A DNA stretch of 39,626 nt from Elusimicrobia bacterium GWA2_51_34 (GTDB lineage Bacteria; Elusimicrobiota; Elusimicrobia; Elusimicrobiales; UBA9959), in NCBI GenBank assembly GCA_001799565.1, contig MGTS01000004.1, forward strand, positions 1 through 39,626, read 5' to 3'. Of this stretch, positions 29,609-32,914 are shown piece after piece (position 1 is the first letter of the stretch; each line of letters begins with the position of its first letter). The notes beneath the pieces are model-generated. The model was not told where the DNA came from. It did no database searches and saw only the letters and a list, made by a program, of their open reading frames with translations. The position numbers and the translations under genes were made by a program.

Positions 29609-29773
29609 CTTTTTCTCCTTATATTTTCCACGGCACAAAATACCTTTTATATAAATTTATTACAATTCCGTCCTCCCGGTCAATCGGTACAAATCCCCAT
29701 ATTGTTCAGTAAAAACACTTATATTACCGGGCTTTGTAATAAAACTGACCATTGGCAAAGGTATAATTTAGTG

Positions 29774-30742
29774 ATGCTTAGGACAATGGCCTGGATAATG
29801 CTCATCGCGATCACGGTAGGCGTGGAGCACAACGTATATACTCATTGGGCGCAGATCCGCGTGATAACGCGCGTAATAAAACGGAAGGTCGTGCCCTGCA
29901 CGGCCCCGATCACTTATTCTATAGGTTCCATTGACCCTCGTTTCGGCATCTCAATAAATACGCTGGCCGGTGATCTTAGAAAAGCCGAAGCTATTTGGGA
30001 AGAACCGTCGGGCAAGAATTTTTTTAAATATACGCCAAACGGCGGCGACGTGACAGTCAATCTGGTATACGATAACCGTCAGGCCGCAGTTGACACGCTA
30101 AAGGCGGCGGGCATCCGGACCGACCGGAGCCGGGCGTCGTACGACGCGCTGAAAGAGAGGTATAACGCGCTCTCGGTGCGGGTGGACTCAAAGCAATCCA
30201 GGTACAATAATCAGGCGGCAGTCTACAAACTGAACGAAAATGCGTACAATGCCAAAGTGAAATACTGGAATAAAAAAACATTTGCGCCGGCAGCGGAGCG
30301 GAAGCGATTACAGGCCGAGAAAGCGGCGCGGGCGCGGGAATTCGCGGCTCTGAAATCGTTTGAGAAAACTCTTAACGCGGATATCGGCACATTGAACGCG
30401 CTCGCAACCACGCTTAATCAGTTGATCGTGCAGCTTCATTTAAACGTCAAGCAGTACAACCGCACAGGCGCCTCCCTGGGCCAATTTGAACAGGGCTTAT
30501 ACCGTATCTCATGGGGAATACAGACGATAGACATCTACGAATATTCCGAGCGTATGCGGCTGGTGCGTGTTCTCGCTCATGAGATGGGCCACGCGCTGGG
30601 GCTTGAGCACATTTCCAACCCCGAAGCGGTAATGTACATGATAAACCAAGGCGAGAATCTGAAAGCAACCGGAACGGATATCTCGGAGCTCAACAAGGTG
30701 TGCGCGGCGGGCATCAGAAGCATCAGCAATCCGGGGCAATAG
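29774..30742 (+). CDS. metzincin (matrixin-like) metalloprotease with coiled-coil insertion
   Basis: A 322-residue protein from ATG 29774 (a GTG directly precedes it); the longer frame runs antisense to WrbA and is rejected. An N-terminal hydrophobic stretch is probably a membrane anchor or signal. The first half of a metzincin fold (PITYSIGSIDPRFGISINTLAGDLRKAEAIWEE, and DVTVNLVYDN near residue 93) is interrupted by a charged coiled-coil of about 120 residues (about 115-235, many Ala/Arg/Glu/Asn). It then resumes at the zinc helix LVRVLAHEMGHALGLEHISNPEAVMYMI with the complete HExxHxxGxxH and Met-turn. A TATAAT lies six bases upstream of the ATG, so the transcript may be leaderless. Confidence 0.75.
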   Translation: MLRTMAWIMLIAITVGVEHNVYTHWAQIRVITRVIKRKVVPCTAPITYSIGSIDPRFGISINTLAGDLRKAEAIWEEPSGKNFFKYTPNGGDVTVNLVYDNRQAAVDTLKAAGIRTDRSRASYDALKERYNALSVRVDSKQSRYNNQAAVYKLNENAYNAKVKYWNKKTFAPAAERKRLQAEKAARAREFAALKSFEKTLNADIGTLNALATTLNQLIVQLHLNVKQYNRTGASLGQFEQGLYRISWGIQTIDIYEYSERMRLVRVLAHEMGHALGLEHISNPEAVMYMINQGENLKATGTDISELNKVCAAGIRSISNPGQ

Positions 30743-30806: not shown

Positions 30807-30885
30807 AAAGTTGCGACTGCGACTTCAGGCTAATTTAATATAATTTTATCATGCCAAAAAAAGTTTTTAACTTTGTCGCAACTTT
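30807..30885. repeat. inverted repeat around the start codon of the fusion gene
   Basis: AAAGTTGCGAC at 30807-30817 and its inverse GTCGCAACTTT at 30875-30885 flank the promoter-like TATAAT (30839-30844) and the ATG (30851). With one mismatch the pair extends to 13 or 14 bases. It might be an operator pair or an mRNA hairpin that hides the start. Confidence 0.4.
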
Positions 30886-32914
30886 ACCATTACGGTTTCG
30901 CACAGCACGTTCTTTAAGATCTCTGCTGCCGGTTGTCTTGCAGATTTGTTTACTGTCTGCTGCCGCAATTTCAGCCGGCACAAGCGGAAAAATCGGCGTA
31001 TACAGCGGTTCTTTTGACCCTCCCACTATTGCTCATAAAGCGATCATGGAAGCTGCTCTGGAAAAATATCAACTCAAAAAGCTTTATCTCCTGGTAAATT
31101 TAGGCGGCACAAAGAATTACCTTACTTCATTCTCAGAGCGTTCATCCATGATAAAGCTTATGTTGGGGTCTAAGATAAATAGCGTGGAATTACTGCCCAT
31201 CTTATCCCAGCAAGCCAAAGAGCTGGCCAATAAAAATATTCAGGAAATAGAAAAGGCCGATAGTTTGTATGTTTTTTTAGGCCAGGACTCATATGAAAGC
31301 CTGCCTGCCGGATATGTTAATCCCAGGGGCATAAACTGGGTGGTAGTACCCCGCTCCACGGATACCGCCCCCACACTTGGCCCCAACGCTTCTATTCTTG
31401 CCCTGGACAATCTGCATACCGTCTCTTCTACGGAGGTAAGGAAATTAACCGCGGCAGGCAAATTGGACGAGGCTCCCCTGGACCCGGCAGTGTCCGCTTA
31501 CATAAAGAAAATCAATCTTTATGTCCCGCTCCCGGCGGAATTACTGGAATTGCAAAAGCAGCTGTTAGAATCTGATTTTAATTATTTCAGGAACAGATTA
31601 TGCGCAACGGCTTCTCTTTCGCCGCAGGATTGCCTTAAACTGAACTCTCCGCCATTCGTACCGGCGCAATCCGTGCTAGGATGGTCCGACAATTTTATCC
31701 GCAAAACACTGGAATTGGCTCCGCCCGGGCGGCAGACAGAAACTTTGCGCCACAAACTGCTTGAAGGCTTGCTGTTGCCGGATCAGCAGCCCAGATTCCA
31801 GTGCCTGTACGCAATTCCGGCGCGGAACTGGCCGGAAACAGTGATAGTTGATGAAAAAACATATCTTTTGCCCCGAATTTCATCTTCCACAGACAATCAC
31901 ACCCTGGACAAGGAAGCTTATTTGGCCGTTTCTTTGCCTAAATCGCTGCGAAGTTTTATCTCCGCCAATACTATTGCGGCTTATATCCACAATGCGCCGG
32001 CTGAGCAGGCTTTTGCCTATCACCAGAAAGCCGGATTCACTGAAATATACAGATTTTGGACAGCCCCGGACCGGTATATGTTCCTGATCAAAAACAAATC
32101 CGACTCCGCCTTTCGGCTTGTGGCCACTAACATTTCCACCCCCGAATCACGCAAGTTGCTGGAACAGCGGCTGGGCTATTTCATGCGCGAAATACATGCT
32201 GTCCTTCATAAAGACACCGCGCCGCTTTTTGAGCTGAATGAGTCAGGCCTGGCTATGTCTTTTCATCCGCGATCACGGGCGGTCATAGGCTATATGCCGG
32301 CGGCCATGCAATTAATGCGCGCCAGGCCGGAAACCTATACATGCGAACCGATGACCGCCATCGGGCTGCAAATCTCGGTTTGCACCAATACACTGGGCGC
32401 CAACTACCAGGTTTTCGCCGAAAATATGTACAAAGACCAGATGCTTCCGCTTATGGAGCTGCTATATTCAAAAGGCTTGCGGAATTTCACCTATTTGGGG
32501 TCGGCCGGAGGATTGTCAGCTGATATAAAATGCGGTGACATAGTGCTGCCTTCAGAAGTTGAAACGCAGCCGGGAAAATTTGAAAAATTAGAGAATCATG
32601 CCCGGGCTCTGCCGGAGATCGCGCCGGGAACAACACTCCATCCCACGGGAAGGGAGGGTTTTGTTACCTCGGTCATGGACGAGGACAAGGCCGCTTTGGA
32701 CAGGCTTGCCGCTGTAAACGCGGATTGCGTGGAACTGGAAGTAAGGTATCTGCTGGAGTTTTGCCGGCAAAAAAAAGATTGCAGCCTTTCCGCTGTCCTG
32801 TTCATCACGGATCTGCCGGCAGATAAGGACAAAACGCTGTACGCGAACCAGGCATGCCGCGAGAAAGTAAAACAAAGCGCTAAATCCGTTCTGGAAGGCC
32901 TCTTATTCCCCTGA
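30851..32914 (+). CDS. exported nucleotidyltransferase + nucleoside-phosphorylase-like fusion
   Basis: A 687-residue protein with an N-terminal signal-like segment (residues about 20-42, basic then hydrophobic). Residues about 46-225 form a NadD/CoaD-like adenylyltransferase fold. GSFDPPTIAH at residues 53-62 is the nucleotide-binding T/HxGH loop in the CoaD-like Thr form, and VSSTEVRKL near residue 192 is the second signature. Residues about 230-500 are unassigned, with a YHQKAGFTEIYRF stretch. Residues about 500-687 look like a PNP/UDP phosphorylase: YLGSAGGLSADIKCGDIVLPSEVE for the phosphate/base loop, and TSVMDEDKAALDRLAAVNADCVELEVRYLLEF with VELE in place of the usual VEME. It could act in NAD or nucleotide salvage or destruction outside the membrane; this is inference. 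It is AT-richer than its neighbours. A TATAAT lies seven bases before the ATG. Confidence 0.7.
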   Translation: MPKKVFNFVATLPLRFRTARSLRSLLPVVLQICLLSAAAISAGTSGKIGVYSGSFDPPTIAHKAIMEAALEKYQLKKLYLLVNLGGTKNYLTSFSERSSMIKLMLGSKINSVELLPILSQQAKELANKNIQEIEKADSLYVFLGQDSYESLPAGYVNPRGINWVVVPRSTDTAPTLGPNASILALDNLHTVSSTEVRKLTAAGKLDEAPLDPAVSAYIKKINLYVPLPAELLELQKQLLESDFNYFRNRLCATASLSPQDCLKLNSPPFVPAQSVLGWSDNFIRKTLELAPPGRQTETLRHKLLEGLLLPDQQPRFQCLYAIPARNWPETVIVDEKTYLLPRISSSTDNHTLDKEAYLAVSLPKSLRSFISANTIAAYIHNAPAEQAFAYHQKAGFTEIYRFWTAPDRYMFLIKNKSDSAFRLVATNISTPESRKLLEQRLGYFMREIHAVLHKDTAPLFELNESGLAMSFHPRSRAVIGYMPAAMQLMRARPETYTCEPMTAIGLQISVCTNTLGANYQVFAENMYKDQMLPLMELLYSKGLRNFTYLGSAGGLSADIKCGDIVLPSEVETQPGKFEKLENHARALPEIAPGTTLHPTGREGFVTSVMDEDKAALDRLAAVNADCVELEVRYLLEFCRQKKDCSLSAVLFITDLPADKDKTLYANQACREKVKQSAKSVLEGLLFP

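Follow-up and report, generated by a model that had tools for sequence, protein, structure and literature searches.

The window, a 39,626-nucleotide stretch of Elusimicrobia bacterium GWA2_51_34, encodes an intact and unusual fusion of two known families, real and seen once: behind an export-type N terminus, a nucleotidyltransferase domain related to NadD and CoaD is joined in one polypeptide to a nucleosidase-like domain of the PNP_UDP_1 superfamily. Adenylyltransferases of the NadD type and nucleosidases of the phosphorylase superfamily normally occur as separate housekeeping enzymes of the cytosol. On the basis of the fusion itself, the two superfamilies, their core motifs, the leader with its start site, and the normal NadD/PNP set of the host, we favor, with a probability of about 0.4, the reading that this is a nucleotide enzyme of two domains that carries a signal and is most likely located in the periplasm or anchored in the membrane, perhaps acting in NAD/nucleotide breakdown and salvage. 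If an exported NadD/nucleosidase fusion is what the gene specifies, it would point to chemistry of NAD or nucleotides beyond the cytoplasm.

Gene architecture and distribution

The gene is a single uninterrupted open reading frame from an ATG at 30851 to a stop codon at 32914, coding for 687 aa. Its features and those next to it are as follows.

29774 to 30742, forward strand: upstream matrixin-type metallopeptidase (Peptidase_M10) with a hydrophobic N terminus and its own TATAAT-N6-ATG (29762 to 29776)
30839 to 30853, forward strand: TATAAT-N6-ATG, probable leaderless promoter/start, from motif spacing and enrichment
30851 to 32914, forward strand: coding sequence of 687 aa (leader, NadD-like domain, middle region, nucleosidase/phosphorylase-like domain)
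30851 to 30982, forward strand: N-terminal leader, residues 1 to 44, with a basic n-region and the core LLPVVLQICLLSAAAISAG; putative signal peptide or N-terminal anchor
30989 to 31525, forward strand: NadD/CoaD-like nucleotidyltransferase domain, residues 47 to 225
31007 to 31036, forward strand: GSFDPPTIAH, nucleotide-binding/catalytic motif (T/HxGH variant)
31424 to 31441, forward strand: SSTEVR motif (ISSTxxR)
31526 to 32275, forward strand: middle region, residues 226 to 475, with no detectable relative
32276 to 32905, forward strand: PNP_UDP_1-superfamily, nucleosidase-like domain, residues 476 to 685
32498 to 32515, forward strand: GSAGGL, nucleosidase-like motif with no preceding phosphate-binding Arg
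32729 to 32740, forward strand: VELE motif (ribose-binding VExE)
32810 to 32812, forward strand: Asp654 of ITD, which the alignment pairs with the Asp of the MTAN "ISD"

Both domains are recovered above their thresholds in Pfam, CTP_transf_like at residues 50 to 198 (36.4 bits against a cut-off of 21) and PNP_UDP_1 (PF01048) at residues 536 to 684 (26.2 bits against a gathering cut-off of 25.1). The coding signal favors frame 0 from codon 47 onward, with one near-neutral block (231 to 276), and its extension across the domains indicates that the fusion is not a frameshift artifact. The leader-bearing two-domain frame proposed by the sequence-only reading is thereby confirmed, as is the placement of its C-terminal part in the phosphorylase superfamily. 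GC climbs from 0.458 in the NadD part to 0.524 in the C-terminal part, which, together with the presence of the fusion in one genome only, might point to two genes artificially joined in this metagenome-assembled genome; such a chimera is highly improbable, given that a single open frame runs across the two joins, that the domains carry coding signal, and that leader-bearing PNP fusions are independently present in other genomes. An AlphaFold2 run on the whole protein from three sequences gave a model with a pLDDT of 36.7 that was set aside, its poor quality being attributable to too few homologues.

The same fusion recurring in several genomes had been named as support for an exported enzyme; the exact fusion was found once. 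Searches with the fusion protein retrieved no relatives from plasmids, phages, IMG/VR, or an 85k-genome GTDB contig scan, all of them scans with short exact patterns or tblastn that miss distant relatives. A survey of 341 genomes from the phylum turned up no second NadD-like domain in a comparable fusion; the matches sat in frames of about 160 to 265 or 370 to 465 aa. No description of a NadD plus phosphorylase-superfamily fusion was found in the open-access library searched. The host has its own NadD, which scores above the cut-off, and a CoaD-like gene, both on C21, as well as two PNP-family genes (151 and 164 bits), so the fusion is an extra protein.

As for the surroundings, no NAD or nucleotide metabolism genes were seen adjoining the fusion, and, in a synteny comparison, the M48 gene that neighbors the fusion in the window was not found in same-genus genomes. 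The upstream Peptidase_M10 protein (29774 to 30742) has a long charged, coiled-coil-like insert and lies on the same strand, with no functional link shown.

Translation start and leader

The leader begins with an n-region of net charge +6, followed by LLPVVLQICLLSAAAISAG, the most hydrophobic stretch in the protein. By inspection, it has the hallmarks of a Sec-type leader, namely, a basic n-region, an uncharged hydrophobic core, and small residues at the cleavage site. Among 440 ATG-started, stop-free 46-aa segments of the window, a comparable leader was found only here and at one transmembrane start (two overlapping ATGs). The basic n-region and hydrophobic core thus bear out the export-type N terminus noticed earlier.

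A TATAAT lies exactly six bases ahead of ATG 30851, a spacing that is the geometry of leaderless transcripts. The TATAAT-N6-ATG pattern occurs three times in the window against 0.2 expected (none of 100 shuffles reaches 3) and 54 times genome-wide, where the reversed pattern has 20 occurrences; a frame of at least 80 aa starts at 20 of 30 ATGs so placed, compared with 25% of surrounding ATGs. This geometry suggests that ATG 30851 is probably the true translation start. More generally, the enrichment of the pattern at gene starts of this genome suggests that leaderless transcripts are common in this Elusimicrobiota lineage.

The two lines of evidence on a start upstream of the leader diverge: the start-site pattern points to it, whereas codon usage points against it. 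Codons 2 to 23 show atypical synonymous usage with a noncoding-like score of -0.49, below the start-proximal codons of 24 other window genes (minimum, -0.26). This would be expected of a cytosolic enzyme translated from TTG 30938 or a noncanonical start, with the leader untranslated or reduced to a short stub. We consider this quite unlikely. The TTG (codon 30) is the only canonical start between ATG 30851 and the KIGVYSGSFD of the core; it has no visible Shine-Dalgarno sequence and lies within the hydrophobic run, part of which would be retained even from there. The uncharged run is, moreover, in frame directly ahead of the domain, and the TATAAT-N6-ATG at 30839 to 30853 belongs to the upstream ATG. 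The later, leader-free start that would have undone the sequence-only reading is therefore unlikely, and the protein is likely exported or membrane anchored.

The N-terminal NadD/CoaD-like domain

The CTP_transf_like, TIGR00482, and PDB matches uphold the NadD/CoaD-like identity of the N-terminal domain. The NadD model TIGR00482 (NCBIfam) matches end to end at residues 50 to 224 with 51.5 to 54.3 bits, under its cut-off of 112.45. In PDB comparisons, CoaD is nearest to the domain over its initial 80 residues, and the domain as a whole aligns with the NadD 1kam. We aligned the active site with E. coli NadD, the NadD and CoaD of the host, and three further NadDs from the phylum (L063-L065). The motifs had been called complete at first sight: GSFDPP..H and SSTEVR are indeed present, but the HxGH signature reads TIAH, and both the PPHK loop and the Trp after LP that belongs to the nicotinate site are absent. 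The change of the first His to Thr is as in CoaD, and that of Gly to Ala has parallels in the L063-L065 NadDs, which likewise have Ala or Ser.

With NadD (TIGR00482; the Bacillus subtilis-type 1kam), the domain thus shares its whole-length alignment, the GSFDPP..H, G-x-D-S..LP, and SSTxxR motifs, and a C-terminal YI+..LY, and it differs in scoring 51.5 bits against a cut-off of 112, in TIAH, in its lack of PPHK and the Trp, in the leader, and in being fused. With CoaD (phosphopantetheine adenylyltransferase), it shares the best PDB match (residues 47 to 125), the Thr at the first motif position, and a K..F/S..ER segment, whereas its C-terminal half aligns with NadD instead. We accordingly describe it as having a predicted NadD-like fold, a statement that stops short of NadD specificity, which is not demonstrable from these features.

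The C-terminal domain and the middle region

The C-terminal domain contains GGL..GDIVLPSEVE, and alignment shows that GSAGGL, VELE, and ITD are kept. The catalytic residues referred to here are those that we take to be assigned in these enzyme families. VELE in place of VEME, which had been singled out earlier, is present but represents ordinary variation, with relatives having VEVE, VDCE, and LDLE. The "phosphorylase" label, in contrast, is not supported: where E. coli Udp has its phosphate-binding Arg (LRIGTTG), the present domain has Leu (YLGSAGG), and the GSAGG stretch finds its best PDB fragments in MTA/SAH nucleosidases (TGSAGG). Together, these two observations favor hydrolysis over phosphorolysis as the predicted reaction. 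Relative to the MTA/SAH nucleosidase E. coli Mtn, the domain shares GSAGG..xxKxGDIVxxSEV, VExE, I(S/T)D, and the lack of the phosphate Arg, and it differs in its weak score (E 0.5), in the leader and fusion, and in that Glu12 is not conserved. This catalytic Glu of MTAN, which activates water, pairs with Ala in IGYMPAAM, in a part where the alignment is weak, and nucleosidase activity is uncertain for this reason.

These substitutions bear on the possibility that the protein is a catalytically inert descendant, with one or both domains serving as binding or storage modules; phosphorylase-fold storage proteins exist in plants. PPHK, the Trp, the MTAN Glu12, and the phosphate Arg have all been lost, family scores are low, and the architecture is a singleton, but both domains keep their core motifs within an intact reading frame, and we regard inertness as rather unlikely.

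The middle region, residues 226 to 475, remains without assignment, as previously noted, having neither a Pfam match nor a convincing PDB match. An acetyltransferase, suggested by a visually GNAT-like stretch (NAPAEQAFAYHQKAGF), was rejected, since Pfam lends it no support and an acetyl-CoA motif was not seen. Homology of this region with other leader-bearing proteins, as it appeared in a joint alignment, was also rejected by a profile built without the fusion protein and by shuffles, the comparison score being near or within the shuffled range.

Leader-bearing PNP-superfamily proteins in Elusimicrobiota

Profile searches identified other proteins with PNP-superfamily domains in about 35 Elusimicrobiota genomes from three families, most with visible leaders, the N termini of some being truncated or not assessable. 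Some add radical SAM or macro-like domains, and the leader-bearing forms fall into sizes of about 770 aa (the window's own family) and of 530 to 570 and about 991 aa (f15). No common gene neighbors were found among their genes. The wider interest of the fusion rests on this recurrence, which allows the question to be tested on several proteins of one phylum and not on one orphan.

The first match of the C-terminal part is a protein of 1,289 to 1,311 aa from Elusimicrobia bacterium GWA2_69_24, of the same phylum and class as the window's genome, in which a leader and a radical SAM domain (CSQGCAIC) precede a C-terminal PNP domain. Like the fusion, this protein (L060/L026) combines a leader, an N-terminal enzyme domain, and a C-terminal PNP domain, the last being the closest found (28% identity over 157 aa); it has radical SAM instead of NadD, and its middle region is not significantly similar. 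The joint alignment first suggested that the fusion is a member of the leader-bearing PNP family. When the fusion is left out of the profile, only its PNP domain is matched, and in the tree this domain forms a long branch with no firm placement. Its best partners are the GWA2_69_24 domain (55 bits), then cytosolic PNPs (44), and then another leader-bearing one (39); the scores do not single out the leader-bearing family as the sole source of the C-terminal part, with cytosolic PNPs nearly as good. A leader with a PNP-superfamily domain is a trend common to the fusion and its relatives, which is a lesser claim than common descent as a fusion.

Several members deserve mention in their own right. 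At L026:6704-10570 (L060), the radical SAM enzyme of GWA2_69_24 unexpectedly lies behind a signal-like N terminus. The 991-aa f15 proteins (L052:5461-8433 and L053:4592-7564) match the macro domain weakly (PF01661, E 0.08) and carry a C-terminal PNP-superfamily domain and an Fe/2-oxoglutarate-oxygenase-like H..D..H stretch, for which an oxygenase is possible, though without Pfam support. In L058, an assembly gap separates this C-terminal module from an adjacent polymerase-beta-type nucleotidyltransferase motif. The leader-bearing family in f1 and f15 (L057:3105-5399; L056:3578-5164, reverse strand; L055:814-2388; L100) is distinguished by the signature H.SVASPL..T..W....GV.TVDxE, and its f1 representative has no Pfam matches.

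Proposed function

For the favored periplasmic or membrane-anchored enzyme, we infer export and catalytic competence. The N-terminal T/HxGH adenylyltransferase domain would act on an NMN/NaMN-type or other phosphate-ester substrate, more plausibly in the direction of a dinucleotide pyrophosphorylase than of synthesis, because ATP is scarce outside the cell. If the domains are coupled, the C-terminal nucleosidase-like domain might then cleave the nucleotide or nucleoside so released at its glycosidic bond, yielding base and sugar for uptake in a putative salvage role. Points against this reading are the singleton architecture, the Glu12-to-Ala replacement, the loss of PPHK and the Trp, the leader codon score of -0.49, the lack of a shared neighborhood among related genes, and the lack of an NAD/nucleotide gene beside the fusion.

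The protein could instead be an exported effector or toxin, delivered to neighboring or host cells, where it would deplete or alter the NAD precursors and nucleotides that are plentiful there. Two features of the leader-bearing relatives are consistent with this: their patchy occurrence and their varied enzymatic N termini, which depend on cofactors of the cytosol and would be odd in a periplasm (radical SAM in P0002 and the weak macro match in L053). However, no secretion-system marker, immunity gene, or neighborhood association was seen, the fusion protein matched no defense or phage family in PADLOC or PHROG, and a Sec-type leader by itself leads to the periplasm; we therefore hold this to be unlikely. 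The earlier alternative of a toxin-like or a salvage enzyme is, as such, not decidable from sequence. More broadly, and as speculation that is unlikely to hold, Elusimicrobiota might export modular proteins in which nucleosidase-like domains are combined with varied, normally cytosolic ones (NadD-like, radical SAM, or macro-like with a possible oxygenase), constituting an unrecognized extracytoplasmic nucleotide-processing or delivered-effector system that includes the fusion. Apparently cytosolic associations of the superfamily also occur: a phosphorylase-superfamily domain is fused to a spore-photoproduct-lyase-like radical SAM protein in L048 (G327) and lies directly beside such a protein in L044 (G323).
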